Source of the DNA: a virus
Direction: 5' to 3' (one strand)
DNA: 33,958 nt
IMG/VR virus record: IMGVR_UViG_3300012930_000022
Span: 1 to 33,958 of that record
This document shows, in pieces, positions 3,261-10,019 of this stretch. The notes beneath the pieces were generated by a model, which worked only from the letters and a program-made list of their open reading frames with translations, searched no databases and had not been told where the DNA came from. The first letter of the stretch is position 1. Each line of letters opens with the position of its first letter. The position numbers and the translations under genes were made by a program.

Positions 3261-4916
3261 TTAGATTTCGATCAGCGTCACCCAAGCCAACTGACCAGCG
3301 GTGCTCGAATCCACGGTGATGTTGACGAAGTCCCCGTCATTAAGCGTGGTGGGGAACCCAACCAGGGCGGACACGCTGTTGTTGGCGTTTGAGGTTGCGG
3401 TTGAAATTTGGTTCGTTGAGCCAGGCGAGCCGCCGCTCGGCACGATGTGGAATGTGACGCTCACCGAGCCGCCGCTCTGGTTGCTATGCACCATCAAGTT
3501 GGTGGTGGCGGGGTTGGGCGTGAAGCTCCCCATGAGCATTGCCGTTTTCCCTGTCGCAACTGTATACAGGGTGTTCGTGGACGCGGCAAACGAAGTCAAC
3601 TTTGACGACTTCATGCTTGACGTATTGTCGAACTCGACCACGCAAAAGTTCGCGTTTACGGGCTGTCCACTGGTGTTGATAGCGAAAGACTCTCCTGACT
3701 CAGCAACATATATTGCGGAAGGTGTCTTTATTCCGGCCGTGTTGATCGATATGCTCGAACCAGTGTTTAACCTGTAGTAGCTGCCGGATATTTTTACCAT
3801 CGGCATGATGGTTGACCCGGCAGTCGTATAAATCCACAAGTTAAGCAGGATCGCCCGCTTGTTGGCCGGGACTGTGTACAGGTCAACGTTGCCGGTCGAA
3901 GTGATATGCGTGATCCCCGTCACGTATTTCATGCTGGGCAGGGCGGCCGTGAAAGGCAGGGCAGCCCCGGCGAGGTCGTTAAAGCTGCTTGCCCCGCCTC
4001 CAGACGGGCCTGTCGCCCCTGTTGCTCCGGTAGCCCCTGTAGCGCCGGTCGCCCCAGTTGGGCCAATGAGCGAAGTGCCCGACGGCCAACTTCCGATTGC
4101 CTTGGGGCCAAACAAAGTGTGGGACGTGGTGTTGATGTAGAAATTCCCATTCACCCCTGTTCCCCCGCTTGGGTCAGAGGTTCCATAGAGGACGGTATTT
4201 CCATCCGCCCCCGCAGCTCCCGTTGTTCCTGTCGATCCAGTAGCGCCGGTCGCCCCAGTTGGGCCTGTTGCGCCAGTTGCGCCTGTCGAGCCAGTGGGAC
4301 CAACCAATGAGGTGCCAGAGGGCCACGATCCAGAAGCCTTCGGCCCAAAGAGCGTATGGCTTGCCGTATTGATGTAGAAGTTCCCGTCAATGCCTGTCCC
4401 GCTGCTCGGGTCGCCGCTGCCGTACAACACGGTGTTGCCGGCCGCGCCGGTCGCCCCGGTTGAACCTGTTGTTCCGGTTGGGCCTGTGGCTCCCGTTGAG
4501 CCAGTAGCGCCAGTCGGCCCCACTAATGGCGTGCCAGACGGCCACGTGCCCGAAGCCTTTGGGCCAAACAACGTGTGGCTTGCCGTATTGATGTAGAAGT
4601 TGCCATCGACGCCCGTTGCCCCGCCAGGATCGCCGCTGCCGAACAAAAGCGAGTTGCCTGTTGCGCCAGTTGCGCCTGTCGCACCCGTTGGTCCGGGCGA
4701 GTTAACCACAAACACCTGCCACGTAGCGCCGTCCACGGGGGTCACGTTGCTATTGGTAACCTTAGCGCCATAAAGGCCGTTGTTGTAGGTCACCACGTCA
4801 TTAGGCACATAGACGGCGGCTGAATCCCAAGCCCCGCGCAGCCTTAACGGGCCGGGGGCGGGGGACGGAGGAGTGGTGCTTCCGGCTGTTCCGATACTCA
4901 GGATGTTGTCTGCCAT
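3261..4916 (-). CDS. Collagen-like tail fibre / receptor-binding protein
   Basis: 551 residues. Residues 28-71 resemble the CBM5/12-like carbohydrate-binding fold (RGAWDSAAVYVPNDVVTYNN, ending ATWQVF). Residues 75-308 are Gly-X-Y collagen-like tracts (GPTGATGAT) alternating with three copies of a module containing DGNFYINT, SHTLFGPK and WPSGT. The C-terminal 240 residues are Ser/Thr-rich and beta-type, probably the trimeric receptor-binding tip. It follows the tail hub and is the last large late gene, fitting a host-recognition fibre. Copy B of the junction element ends directly before the ATG and no Shine-Dalgarno sequence is present. It is followed by a strong hairpin. Confidence 0.82.
   Translation of the reverse strand: MADNILSIGTAGSTTPPSPAPGPLRLRGAWDSAAVYVPNDVVTYNNGLYGAKVTNSNVTPVDGATWQVFVVNSPGPTGATGATGATGNSLLFGSGDPGGATGVDGNFYINTASHTLFGPKASGTWPSGTPLVGPTGATGSTGATGPTGTTGSTGATGAAGNTVLYGSGDPSSGTGIDGNFYINTASHTLFGPKASGSWPSGTSLVGPTGSTGATGATGPTGATGATGSTGTTGAAGADGNTVLYGTSDPSGGTGVNGNFYINTTSHTLFGPKAIGSWPSGTSLIGPTGATGATGATGATGATGPSGGGASSFNDLAGAALPFTAALPSMKYVTGITHITSTGNVDLYTVPANKRAILLNLWIYTTAGSTIMPMVKISGSYYRLNTGSSISINTAGIKTPSAIYVAESGESFAINTSGQPVNANFCVVEFDNTSSMKSSKLTSFAASTNTLYTVATGKTAMLMGSFTPNPATTNLMVHSNQSGGSVSVTFHIVPSGGSPGSTNQISTATSNANNSVSALVGFPTTLNDGDFVNITVDSSTAGQLAWVTLIEI
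3993..4655 (-). repeat. Three-unit tandem repeat within the tail-fibre gene
   Basis: Three in-frame units of about 73, 79 and 69 codons, each holding a GSGDP-type loop, NGNFYINT or DGNFYINT, HTLFGPK and WPSGT, ending in a Gly-X-Y tract of varying length. The units are close enough at DNA level to recombine and change fibre length. Confidence 0.85.
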
Positions 4917-5015: not shown

Positions 5016-5354
5016 TTAAGTTGCCCTCAACAGGAACCGGCCCTCCTGCTCCGCGAGCCTGTCAAGCACTTGCCCGAGGTTCGCATACTGCCCGTCCGGT
5101 TCAAGCATTGGGGCATAGGCATCCAGCACCTGCTGCGGCACCTTGCTCCATTCGCTCCCGACCCAAACGAAATCCTCATCCTGCCGCATGAAAGCGACGT
5201 GTTCCGACGAGCAGCGGACATGAATGAGCATCCACTCCATGCCTGGGAGCGGGGGAATTGCCCCCCTCCAGGCTGCGGATATGGACCCAGCCAGGGAACG
5301 GGGACCGTCCGGCGTGTCGTCGCATTTTGTCAAAGCCCAGCCGATTATGTTCAT
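5016..5354 (-). CDS. Small phage protein between tail hub and tail fibre, function unknown
   Basis: 112 residues, soluble, rich in Trp and acidic residues (DEDFVWVGSEWSKVP), with no recognised domain. The ATG has an AAAGGA ribosome-binding site and lies 9 bases after the hub stop, so it is in the tail operon. A tail-fibre chaperone or accessory role is possible from position only. Its C-terminal segment (QVLDRLAEQEGRF) is repeated in frame just after its stop. Confidence 0.7.
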   Translation of the reverse strand: MNIIGWALTKCDDTPDGPRSLAGSISAAWRGAIPPLPGMEWMLIHVRCSSEHVAFMRQDEDFVWVGSEWSKVPQQVLDAYAPMLEPDGQYANLGQVLDRLAEQEGRFLLRAT

Positions 5355-5363
5355 GCTTGTCCT

Positions 5364-8300
5364 TTACGACCTTGGCAGGATGGGGTTGTGCATGAGCAGG
5401 GGTTCGTTCACGCCGTCGTCCAGCCAGTAGTTTCGTTCTTCCATTGCAAGCTCGGGGTCTAAAGTTAATTCTGCCCGGTTGCCGTAGAGGCCGCGGACCT
5501 TCTCAGCCCCAGCCGCCTTGTATGCGGGCACCCACTCGCCATTCTCGAATACCAAATCAAGCGCCGTGCAAAGGTAGCCCTTGACGCGGAACCACATGGT
5601 GCCGGGGTGGTGGCGGAAATGCTTTACTTCGCGGTAGATGTCCTGGCCCGTAGCAATATCTTGTCCCTTGATGAAATCGCCGTCCCGCACATCGCCGACG
5701 CGCATCCTTACGGGCTCTGCTTCCAGCGACCCGCTCTTGAGCCAGCACATGCAGTCTTCATGTGCGCATGAACCGGGGTCGATGGTCCCGCCGCCGCCCC
5801 CGCCGCTGGAGGTGGTTGTGTCGTGCAAGGTGCCTATAAAGCCCCGCCCGTCTATGGTGGCCGGCTGCGCCTGCGCGGCAGTCACGCTTCCCGTGAACGG
5901 GCCCAGGAAGTGCATCGTCGCTGTGCCGCCCGAAGCGGTGATGTATGCGACAAAGTAGTACGTGGTTGAAGATGACAGACTGGTGAACGACACCGAGCCG
6001 CTGGTAAGCGACAGGCTGCTGCCGTCAGGCAAGCCGAGGGACTGTGTCCCCCAGGAGAAACCGAGCGTGCTCGTGGTTTCCGCCGCGAGCGTGAAAGGCA
6101 CAGACTGGCCCGGCAGGAGGCTGAGCTGCGGGTTCAGCATCGTGCTCGTTGGGACCTGCCCGGTGCCCACGTCCAGGTACTGCACGCGGGGATGGTAGTT
6201 CACCGAAATTGAGGCCGGCGCGTCAATGTTGACCAGGCTGATCCGCGCTACATACCAATTGAACGACGACGAGAAGGAGCCGTCTATGTAAAAGAACCCG
6301 GTGGTGCTGAAGGTGCCCGATGTTCCGATGACCTGCTTGCCGACATACTCAAACCACCCGCCCGTGCCTGCTTGCGCCGTGAGCCACGTGAATGTGCCCC
6401 CGGTGCCCGTTGCGTTGGACGCGAACTGGATGCTGTGCCCAACAGGGATATTGGCACGGATGCGCCACAGGTATGTGCTGCCCTTGTGGTATGTGTTAAC
6501 GGCGAACGTCCCGCTGTCAGCCGGGATTCCAACCTCAATGCCGCCCAAGCCCGGCGATTCGCCGCCCGCCGAAACCGCGATCTGGAGCTTCCAGCCGGAA
6601 GTATTCCCGCAGGCCGCGTCAGACACAGCCGAAAACGTCACATGCCCCGTGGCGTTGTTGTCGTACACAAAGTATCCGCTCAGGCTTCCCGAAGCGAATT
6701 CCGGGTTTGTCAATACTTGAAACCCGTCAGTGTTGCCGCCAGCCGAACTGCCTGCAAACCTTCCGGTGCCTGGGGAGTCGTCAATCGCGTTCAGGTCCAG
6801 GGTCGAGAGCTGGAAGGATACGCGGTCGAATAGCATCGTGTTCGCTGTGCCTGTCCAGTTGTAAAGCGCAACACGTGCGAAGGCCGCAGTGGCCGGCGCG
6901 GTGACATTGCCCGAAAATTGTTCCCAGGTGTTTGTTGCCCCGACGTTACCGGCAGCGATGATGTCAGTGGAGGAAACGAGCGAACTGCCCGCTTGGCCCA
7001 TGTCAGTGTCGTTGCTGTACCACTTGACACGCAAAAAGAGGCTGCCTGAGCTTGCTACAGTGCTCTGCACCCGTGCGCGAAGCGTGTAAGTAGCGTTGGG
7101 CTTGACGGTGACCGGCCGCGAGGCAATGCTCGTCCCGCCGCTCGCCCCGTTGTTGGTGATCGCCTGGGAATAGAGCCCGGAGAATGCCGTCCCGCTCCTG
7201 GCATATGTGTAGCCAGTGCCAGTGTGGTCGAAATCAATCGTCCAGCCTTCCGCCACTGTCTTGGTGGAGGAGAAAGTTTCAAAGTCGCCGTTGTACGGGG
7301 CGTCAGGGGTCAGCACCACGCCCGATGGCGTGCGCAGGAAATTGGTCCCGTCCGCCAGGATGTCTACTGGCTTGCCAGTAGTCACTTCGGCCCCGGCTTC
7401 AGCGGGCTTGAGGAACTGAACTGTTGTTCCCCCGGTGAACTGCACCAGGCTCGCGGGCTGCGGGACGTTCAATTGCGCGTTCGTGAACAGGCCGGGGTTT
7501 GCGCCAGACAGGCTCACAGTGAGCGAGGAAACATCGGTGATTTCTTGCAGCCGCCCACGGAGCTTGTTGTAGCTCAAGGCACGGAAGTACACGGTGTTCC
7601 CTACGAAAGTCGATGGGAACTGGAACTCAAGGAACTGCTCGCCCATCTCGATGACAGTTGAGCCTGCGGCATGGGATGCCCTCGTGGTGCCGTACTGCGC
7701 CCGATGGAAATGGTCCACATGGTACGTGCTGTCCCCAACCAGCGTGGCATTCAGATAAGCCATGATTTCCACGCTGCTGTCGATGACGGCAAGCAAAGAG
7801 ATTTGATTGGCGAAGTCAAACGTGGTGCCGCTGAGCAGGGGCACATCGTTCGCATCCACTACGGTGATCGTCTGAGTGTCAGGGTCGCCAGTGCCGACAG
7901 TCATGCCGGAGCCGCCCAAAGTGCCGATTGTGACGCTGGAGGTCAAGTCGCCAAGCAAGTTCCACTTGGCGTTATCCCCGCTCCAGTAAATAAGCGACCC
8001 GCCCCAGTTGTCAGGCGTTACCGGGTCGGCGTAGAGCCGGATAGTGTTGCCCTGGTAGTTGTTCATCGCGTCAGGCAGTTCCAGCGCTACCAAGTCCGTG
8101 TCGCCTGGCGAGATGAGAGCAGGGTTGGTGTTCTGCGCAAGGGCCGTGAGCTTGGGATAAAGAGTTGCGTTCGCTACTCCGTAAGGGAACTCTTCCATAG
8201 TGAGGGCCAGGCCATCGTGCGACTCTTCAATCTTGAGAATGCGCAGTGGCTTCTGGTTCCAGCCCATGTGGCCCCACGTCACCGTGACCAGCTTCATTGG

Positions 8301-10019
8301 CTGGAGCAGGGGGCGGTAGCGGGTCGGAACTGTCCAGGTGAATGTGTCGCGGATGTTGGTGTAGCGCTTTAGGCGGAGGTTCGCCGCCCACTGCGCGATG
8401 TTAACGAAACGGATGAAACTGAAGTCCTGCTGCCCTTCCTCGAAAAGGCCGTTTTGGTTGATGGATGCCGTGTCCTCTTCAGTCACGACTTCGTCGCGGT
8501 AATCAACCAGCGCGTTTATCCAGCCAACCTTGACGCGGTTGAACACATTCTGCTGGGGCTGAGTCTCGACCTTGATCGGCTCCGCGCCGCCCTGCGCGAC
8601 GAAGTCCGTAACATCGAACTCCACCACAGGCTGGGTGTCCGGCTCGTAGATCACACCGAAACCAGCTACGGCAGTGTCGCCATACACGGCAAGCTGAAGC
8701 AGCCCGCCAGACCAGAACATCGTGCCCTGGCCCGCGTCCAGAATCGTGTTGATGACATCCATTGCAGTGGACTGCGTGTCTTGCAGCAAGCTGATAAAAA
8801 ACCCGTTTGCCTGCCAGAAATTCCTTGCGTTCGTCCAGCTCCCGATCAGGCTGGGGTCAAGCCCCACTCCCCACCGTGGGTCGGTGAGGATAGCGGTGAT
8901 AACGTCAGCCGGGTTGGCCCCTGCAATGCCGCCGCCAGCCATGTACTCCGCGTGGATGGTCTCGACATTCATCTGGGGCATCGAGTTGCTTTGCCCCAGT
9001 TGCAGCGCCTCGAACTGCATTGTGGTCAAGCCGCTATATCCGAGTGCCTGGTCTGGGTGGATGCTGGAAAGATATGCCCAAGGGCTTTGCCCGATTCCCC
9101 CCTGGCTCAAGCTGTAGTTCAGCAGGGCCGTGCTCGTATCGACGTGCGGGTCTTTTTCTTGCCACTTGACGAGGAGGGTCTTGCCGGTGTCCCCCGCGTT
9201 GAAAGTGAAATGCCCGCTGTTGTCGCAGGAGTAGTGCGTAGAGACTGAGTGGTCTCCCGGCCCGAAGAAGGCATTGCCCGTCCCCTGGTCGATAACCTGC
9301 GTCCACCCAATGAACAACGAAGTGTTCGCAGTGCTATATGTTGTGCCAGTAAGGACGAACTCGTCGCTCATCCACACCGTGCCAAGCAAAGACGAATAAT
9401 TGATCGTGACTGTCGCGCCCGCGTCAGCCGCGTCGAAGGTGTAGCGTGTGACGCCAGGCGATGGGACCGTCACCGTGTACACGCCAGGAGACACGACGGC
9501 ACCCTTTTGCAGCGATGCCTGATAGGTGCCCGAAAGAGTCCGTGAGCCAGGGGAGCCGAAGTCGTTCACGACAGCGCTGTAGCTCACTGCCCTGCTCACA
9601 CCGTTGTCGCCTGTGAAGTTCGGGTCGGAAACGTCGTGGTGCCCGCCGCCACCGGGGACGGTGAAGCCCGTGCTGAGCTGGGAAACCCCTACCTTGCCAG
9701 CGGAAGTGAAAAGGGAATCAATGTGGTCGCAGACCCCATGCCCGAGCACTGCTTGCAATGCCGTCTGGTAGTGGTCGGTCGTTGTGCTGGCTTGTGTGCC
9801 TCCGCCGCCCCCAAGGCCCTTGCCCACGTGCTGCCCCGGTGTCGTAGTGGGGTTGTTCTTCCAATCCCCGGTCCAGACGAGATTCCATGGCACACGGTTA
9901 GGCCCGATCAGGACGGAAATCACTTTGCCATAAATAGAAGATGGCAACTGGATGCCGTTGTACACCTGGTTTTGTGCCGCTGGTGTTGTTGATGCCGATT
10001 TTGATCCGAAAATTCCCAT
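5364..10019 (-). CDS. Tail hub / central tail tip protein with C-terminal Hint-like domain
   Basis: 1551 residues. The N-terminal half matches the host-specificity hub family (Phage-tail_3, gene-transfer-agent hub, lambda J type): segments such as TALQAVLGHG, LTDPRWGVG and FNRVKVGWINA with DYRDEV are typical. From about 890 it carries Ser/Thr-rich beta domains, one of them (NGDFE, WTIDFDHTGTGYTY, NATYTLRARVQS) like a CBM4/9 carbohydrate-binding module, followed by fibronectin-like segments. After a Gly-rich linker, residues 1418-1551 look like a Hint domain: C1425, VGDVRDGD at 1441-1448, TALD where TxxH is expected, and H1544-N1545 near the end. It sits downstream of NlpC/P60, BR0599 and DUF2460 genes, the usual order of this tail-tip module. 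Confidence 0.88.
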   Translation of the reverse strand: MGIFGSKSASTTPAAQNQVYNGIQLPSSIYGKVISVLIGPNRVPWNLVWTGDWKNNPTTTPGQHVGKGLGGGGGTQASTTTDHYQTALQAVLGHGVCDHIDSLFTSAGKVGVSQLSTGFTVPGGGGHHDVSDPNFTGDNGVSRAVSYSAVVNDFGSPGSRTLSGTYQASLQKGAVVSPGVYTVTVPSPGVTRYTFDAADAGATVTINYSSLLGTVWMSDEFVLTGTTYSTANTSLFIGWTQVIDQGTGNAFFGPGDHSVSTHYSCDNSGHFTFNAGDTGKTLLVKWQEKDPHVDTSTALLNYSLSQGGIGQSPWAYLSSIHPDQALGYSGLTTMQFEALQLGQSNSMPQMNVETIHAEYMAGGGIAGANPADVITAILTDPRWGVGLDPSLIGSWTNARNFWQANGFFISLLQDTQSTAMDVINTILDAGQGTMFWSGGLLQLAVYGDTAVAGFGVIYEPDTQPVVEFDVTDFVAQGGAEPIKVETQPQQNVFNRVKVGWINALVDYRDEVVTEEDTASINQNGLFEEGQQDFSFIRFVNIAQWAANLRLKRYTNIRDTFTWTVPTRYRPLLQPMKLVTVTWGHMGWNQKPLRILKIEESHDGLALTMEEFPYGVANATLYPKLTALAQNTNPALISPGDTDLVALELPDAMNNYQGNTIRLYADPVTPDNWGGSLIYWSGDNAKWNLLGDLTSSVTIGTLGGSGMTVGTGDPDTQTITVVDANDVPLLSGTTFDFANQISLLAVIDSSVEIMAYLNATLVGDSTYHVDHFHRAQYGTTRASHAAGSTVIEMGEQFLEFQFPSTFVGNTVYFRALSYNKLRGRLQEITDVSSLTVSLSGANPGLFTNAQLNVPQPASLVQFTGGTTVQFLKPAEAGAEVTTGKPVDILADGTNFLRTPSGVVLTPDAPYNGDFETFSSTKTVAEGWTIDFDHTGTGYTYARSGTAFSGLYSQAITNNGASGGTSIASRPVTVKPNATYTLRARVQSTVASSGSLFLRVKWYSNDTDMGQAGSSLVSSTDIIAAGNVGATNTWEQFSGNVTAPATAAFARVALYNWTGTANTMLFDRVSFQLSTLDLNAIDDSPGTGRFAGSSAGGNTDGFQVLTNPEFASGSLSGYFVYDNNATGHVTFSAVSDAACGNTSGWKLQIAVSAGGESPGLGGIEVGIPADSGTFAVNTYHKGSTYLWRIRANIPVGHSIQFASNATGTGGTFTWLTAQAGTGGWFEYVGKQVIGTSGTFSTTGFFYIDGSFSSSFNWYVARISLVNIDAPASISVNYHPRVQYLDVGTGQVPTSTMLNPQLSLLPGQSVPFTLAAETTSTLGFSWGTQSLGLPDGSSLSLTSGSVSFTSLSSSTTYYFVAYITASGGTATMHFLGPFTGSVTAAQAQPATIDGRGFIGTLHDTTTSSGGGGGGTIDPGSCAHEDCMCWLKSGSLEAEPVRMRVGDVRDGDFIKGQDIATGQDIYREVKHFRHHPGTMWFRVKGYLCTALDLVFENGEWVPAYKAAGAEKVRGLYGNRAELTLDPELAMEERNYWLDDGVNEPLLMHNPILPRS

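Follow-up and report, generated by a model that had tools for sequence, protein, structure and literature searches.

Introduction

The Hint fold is used by inteins and hedgehog proteins for self-cutting and is also known from toxins. Its chemistry starts when the first cysteine of the domain (Cys1) attacks the peptide bond before it; water, a thiol or another nucleophile then resolves the resulting thioester. Hint domains can also cyclise their terminal Asn. The first step usually requires the His of block B. Hint, bacterial-intein-like (BIL) and PT-HINT domains are already known as families. A-type BILs are found in variable, non-housekeeping proteins (PMC7765530). The BIL2 domain of Tetrahymena BUBL, which conjugates a ubiquitin-like carrier, reportedly makes its link to Lys through an isopeptide bond (PMC8616854). 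In a large survey, toxin-processing HINT domains were never associated with T6SS and PVC, which are phage-tail-like systems (PMC3482391). We found no description in the open-access literature of Hint or BIL domains as recurrent tail-hub ends with partner genes, although priority is not established.

Here, we analyze IMG/VR record IMGVR_UViG_3300012930_000022, positions 1–33,958; "the window" refers to this whole stretch of 33,958 nucleotides. A first-pass annotation, made from the sequence without database searches, had proposed a Hint domain at the C-terminus of its tail hub. The domain resembles A-type BILs in its predicted Hint fold, its His-Asn end and the lack of Cys, Ser or Thr after the Asn. 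However, it sits on a phage tail hub behind a Gly linker, has the C-terminal flank of 3–9 aa seen in such hubs, and is followed by a partner gene. It also departs from the BIL pattern at block B, where TxxH is expected and its clade has Asp or Glu. Since the strict BIL pattern breaks down at this block, "divergent Hint variant" is the best name for a domain that descends with BIL-type Hints and may work as they do.

Other described systems are further removed. Hub Hints are homologous by profile to PT-HINT (PF07591), sharing Cys1, GD, the block-B region and HN, but they sit on a tail hub with no toxin behind the HN, and the window lies beyond the reach of the Pfam model. Phage inteins, such as the terminase and RecA-like inteins matched by the hub Hints of two related loci (L043 and L167, tblastn), interrupt enzymes and can splice, whereas the window Hint is terminal and lacks a C-extein nucleophile.

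Results

The hub gene and the elements of its C-terminal domain are as follows.

5364–10019, minus strand: tail hub protein, 1551 aa (Phage-tail_3, Rcc01698_C, PHROG 1101)
5787–5804, minus strand: Gly6 linker, residues 1406–1411 (from the sequence; other hubs are also Gly-rich before the Hint)
5367–5768, minus strand: predicted Hint-fold domain with short tail, residues 1418–1551 (hub-Hint profile, structure matches)
5766–5768, minus strand: C1418, candidate Cys1 (linker context DPGSC, compare DPGGTC in L001)
5745–5747, minus strand: C1425, candidate Cys1 (canonical spacing to the GD block)
5676–5681, minus strand: GD of the block-A region, residues 1447–1448 (aligns with GD/GE in other hub Hints)
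5556–5567, minus strand: TALD, residues 1485–1488, at the block-B position, His replaced by Asp (aligned with TQRE in L001 and SPCE in L245)
5433–5435, minus strand: R1529 at the block-F His position (HNYWL in L001 and HNYYL in L245 at this place)
5385–5390, minus strand: terminal H1544-N1545 (from the sequence; Asn in 23/23 other hub Hints)
5367–5384, minus strand: tail PILPRS after HN (from the sequence; 3–9 aa in relatives)

Homology assigns this ORF firmly to the tail hubs, with matches to Pfam Phage-tail_3 (E 1.1e-17) and Rcc01698_C (E 3.7e-9) and to PHROG 1101, a tail protein (E 1.7e-59). Domain matches among the surrounding tail genes include Phage_BR0599, DUF2460 and NlpC/P60. In-frame GC3 stays at 0.72–0.78 up to the end of the ORF, without a shift, and the rest of the hub is alike. 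The hub ends in the sequence SSGGGGGGTIDPGSCAHEDCMCWLKSGSLEAEPVRMRVGDVRDGDFIKGQDIATGQDIYREVKHFRHHPGTMWFRVKGYLCTALDLVFENGEWVPAYKAAGAEKVRGLYGNRAELTLDPELAMEERNYWLDDGVNEPLLMHNPILPRS. Two genes behind the hub, at 3261–4916, lies a collagen-like fibre protein with Gly-Pro-Thr/Ala repeats (Pfam Collagen, 3e-9).

The motifs listed in the first-pass annotation are all in place on the minus strand: the Gly linker, VGDVRDGD (1441–1448), TALD, NGEWVPA (N1493 to A1499) and an H-N pair followed by Pro. Its choice of C1425 as the cysteine holds in part; the residue is present, but C1418 and C1423 are candidates for Cys1 as well. Spacing to the GD block favours C1423 (24 residues) or C1425 (22 residues), the commonest distance in relatives being 23, while the DPG-S-C linker context favours C1418. 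The preceding residue is Met for C1425 and Ser for C1418. A frameshift behind the odd N-terminal part of the Hint was considered and rejected, as the overlapping frame does not resemble L001. At the other end, P1546 directly follows H1544-N1545, and the six residues PILPRS lead to the stop, a tail too short for a payload. Inteins have Cys, Ser or Thr at the start of the C-extein and host protein on both sides; here there are Pro at +1 and six residues. With no such residue after the HN and almost no C-extein, ordinary splicing is not expected, in agreement with the earlier reading.

Direct library searches fail for this domain, so the case for a Hint rests on relatives and structure. For the 136-aa window domain, nothing useful came from hmmscan in Pfam, NCBIfam or PHROGs, or from phmmer against PDB sequences, and the direct profile match to Hint families that the annotation had offered as a check did not materialize in the first three of these libraries. 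The Pfam search gave no Vint (PF14623) match in the window domain. In cultured phages, tblastn with the window and L001 domains yielded nothing better than E 3–6, and single-protein scans with the window domain through viral and genome contigs found no relative.

Relatives from other hubs provide the profile evidence. A profile HMM was built from the other 23 hub C-terminal Hints, with the window left out; it scores the window at 26.5 bits, compared with 5.1 for the best shuffle (813 scored of 1000 made), and gives it an E of 7.8e-4 among 25,887 ORFs. The same HMM also retrieves bacterial PT-HINT proteins. By hhalign, hub Hints against PT-HINT reach 98% and window plus L001 against the other hub Hints 90%, while window plus L001 directly against PT-HINT reach 16%. 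Individual relatives tie to known Hint families: the Hint of L043 matches an NCBIfam intein-containing family (1.4e-9), and the L001 domain matches Pfam Vint (9.9e-5, 22.6 bits, below the cut-off of 27). L110 is a prophage of Frateuria terrea. When the hub Hint of Frateuria was searched across its order, it returned itself and three borderline matches in other proteins.

Predicted structures point the same way. The first AlphaFold model was made from a six-row alignment that included remote Hints, and the second from a two-row alignment of window and L001 with no remote Hint. Both are low-confidence models (mean pLDDT 64.7 and 47.3, respectively, and below 50 over the last ~26–29 residues), yet inteins, BILs, hedgehog or Vint are their top PDB matches. 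For the six-row model, the first 31 Foldseek matches in the PDB are all Hint (BIL2, hedgehog, Vint), led by BIL2 (E 9.5e-3, prob 0.99), and 50/50 VIA matches listed are Hint, with a best Z of 7.4 over 71 residues at 2.2 A, which is middling. For the two-row model, Foldseek matches 1–5 are all BILs (E 3.2e-3, prob 0.99), the best being the BIL structures 2lwy and 6tmm. Vint and hedgehog Hog-Hint domains are also related, given the sub-cut-off Vint match of L001 and structure matches to 8r2c and 1at0, but the window hub lacks a vWA domain, a hedgehog domain and any sterol-recognition part behind the Hint. The structure prediction proposed in the first-pass annotation thus supports the fold through low-confidence models, taken together with the relatives.

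The lack of a direct library match and the weak models would suit an ordinary beta-rich tip domain in which Hint motifs occur by chance. We consider this highly improbable in view of the distance between the profile score and the shuffle maximum, and of structure matches that are consistently Hint-only. By profile and model, a Hint fold of bacterial-intein-like type is supported for the last ~130 residues of the window hub. The annotation's claim of a Hint domain is upheld by the 23-Hint HMM, by the Hint-only structure matches and by relatives that match Hint families; the self-cutting that it also proposed is putative.

With the window included, we count ~24 distinct hub C-termini built as Gly linker, Cys, Hint, (H)N and a tail of 3–9 residues, often xKP. 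One is that of L001, an IMG/VR phage: its hub shares 62% identity with the window hub over the whole length, and its C-terminal domain shares 42% and likewise has HN a few residues before the end. Cys1 and the terminal Asn are kept in 23/23 other hub Hints, most of which were first chosen by a pattern requiring Cys and HN/HQ, and the penultimate His is kept in all but L216. A later HMM search required neither residue, and every member that it added has the Cys and, where complete, the Asn. Before the Gly linker, at window residues ~1310–1405 (about 5805–6092), lies a DGS...TTYYxxxY pattern; a similar-looking stretch stands at the equivalent place in L001, L245, L022 and L110 (by eye). Such a stretch precedes the linker in many Hint hubs and may travel with the Hint.

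The profile kinship with PT-HINT, whose place in polymorphic toxins is ahead of the toxin domain (PMC3482391), raises the question of whether the hub Hints are remnants of a toxin-release module that has lost its C-terminal payload. The hub Hints all stop 3–9 residues after HN, so such a loss would have to be old and universal, and no toxin or immunity gene was recognized beside them. We regard this origin as decidedly unlikely.

The hub-Hint tree places the window with L001 and L245 in one clade (support 97/91). The annotation had noticed TALD where TxxH is normal, and this substitution proves to be a clade trait: the block-B residue is Asp in the window (TALD) and Glu in L001 (TQRE) and L245 (SPCE), as judged by eye and from the sisters, since MAFFT puts block B in the wrong place when given few remote Hints. 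The block-F His is present in L001 and L245 and is Arg in the window. Elsewhere in the family the block-B His is kept (L017, L022, L043, L188, L191–193, L216, L284 and L167), while in L110-like members block B mostly reads CSxx[AT]P, with Ala or Thr for His. Compared with the hub core, the Hint is less constrained, with an identity of 41% versus 71% and a rough dN/dS of 0.24 versus 0.11 (dS saturated). By these comparisons, the Hint is under constraint, though a looser one than the hub core.

These substitutions, the looser constraint on the Hint, and a post-HN tail so short that release could hardly matter are all consistent with a Hint that has lost its catalysis in this clade but whose fold is kept, capping the tail tip in a structural or receptor-contact role. 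A scaffold alone, however, would not need Cys1 and the terminal Asn to be conserved over ~23 diverse hub Hints, and several relatives retain TxxH. We take a dead cap to be a serious possibility, although on balance we doubt it.

Hints also occur elsewhere in tail hubs. Seven loci (L109, L115, L120, L127, L137, L153 and L176) carry complete Hints inside the hub, at an N-terminal Gly-rich loop, which makes a second Hint site. These internal Hints keep the block-B His (TENH, with TDTH in L176) and end in VHN, in contexts such as GGKGGGSG-CFAPET...VHN-GGGSK. In L191, L192, L193 and L216, the hub is seemingly split into a core ORF and an ORF of ~700–1060 aa in another frame that ends in the Hint; these related contigs perhaps use programmed frameshifting here or have a pair of genes that overlap. 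The hubs of L020, L257 and L089 end in a long Gly linker (GGTGGTGGGGGGDSGGGGRQFF), and no Hint was seen in three frames after the linker of L089; judged by sequence, these ends look like hubs from which the domain was lost or in which it was never gained.

The window Hint is followed by a small gene.

5016–5354, minus strand: small partner gene, 112 aa, beginning ~10 nt after the hub stop (homologs behind the L001 and L245 Hint hubs)

Among 304 hub loci, this partner family is present only at the window, L001 and L245; several loci are incomplete, so that absence is not always informative. An HMM built from the copies of the window and L001 retrieves that of L245 (1.4e-7), and these three are the only firm members by sequence. 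The small genes of L017, L022 and L284 may belong to the same family, as their HMM retrieves the L245 partner at 5.7e-4; their leave-one-out E values are weak, at 3.9, 0.024 and 0.21. No known family was found for the partner protein, and the window-type partner is not present with TxxH-type hub Hints such as those of L043 and L192. A second small-gene family (MSYxK...TGExV) stands directly behind L110-like Hint hubs (L110, L265, L267, L269, L273, L275, L277, L278 and L280–282) and in no collected Hint-less hub locus. These hubs are closely related and are not independent cases of partner association, and hhalign found no relation between their partner family and that of the window.

Close hubs differ in whether they carry the Hint. 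Over residues 1–693, the L245 hub is ~80% identical to those of L217, L218, L220, L223, L224 and L234, all of which are Hint-less, and the L010 hub, also without a Hint, shares 54% identity with the window hub. From these comparisons, the Hint and its partner gene look like a cassette that moves between tail tips.

Discussion

We consider it probable, though well short of settled, that the window hub carries a BIL-type Hint-fold domain with a partner, and that self-processing at the Gly linker is a property of the family that is weakened, altered or lost in the window. Through an N-S acyl shift, Cys1 in the family would attack the bond after the Gly linker; water, a thiol or an amine could then resolve the thioester. 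The hub would then be cut from its own Hint, or passed on by it, during tail maturation, and the His-Asn end would assist or would trim the short tail. With Pro at +1 and the protein ending six residues after HN, release of a payload is pointless, so a meaningful cut would lie N-terminal, behind the Gly linker.

In the window, self-cutting may be impaired, since the block-B and block-F His are both gone. With Asp at block B and Arg at block F, the first step may be slowed, done differently or lost, the last of which would leave a folded tip domain. In an engineered intein without the block-B His, a bulky −1 residue compensates, so that the acyl shift is not necessarily abolished (PMC6333167). 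By analogy, activity of the window Hint is possible.

The thioester could also serve conjugation rather than cutting. The Hint might transfer the hub onto the partner protein (5016–5354) or a host-surface nucleophile, as BUBL BIL2 does with its carrier. In BUBL, too, the Hint stands behind a carrier protein; BIL2, with its reported isopeptide bond to Lys (PMC8616854), is the top structural match, a Gly-rich stretch precedes Cys1, and a partner gene accompanies the Hint across unrelated hubs. However, the hub is not ubiquitin-like and the block-B His is missing, so that conjugation by hub Hints is speculation. The partner belongs to no known family, the TxxH-type L043 and L192 lack it, and a chaperone or assembly role would explain it equally well. 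We think transfer of this kind unlikely. The same low expectation applies to an exchangeable two-gene tail-tip cassette in which the Hint thioester hands the hub covalently to the partner protein or a host-surface group; if true, the tail tip would be capped or cross-linked through its own chemistry, without ATP.

Hints recur on the tips of true phage tails, and closely related hubs differ in having or lacking the Hint along with a partner gene. The clades in which the block-B His is replaced offer natural variation for probing what this residue does in catalysis, and tail-tip maturation by self-cleavage or self-conjugation becomes directly testable.
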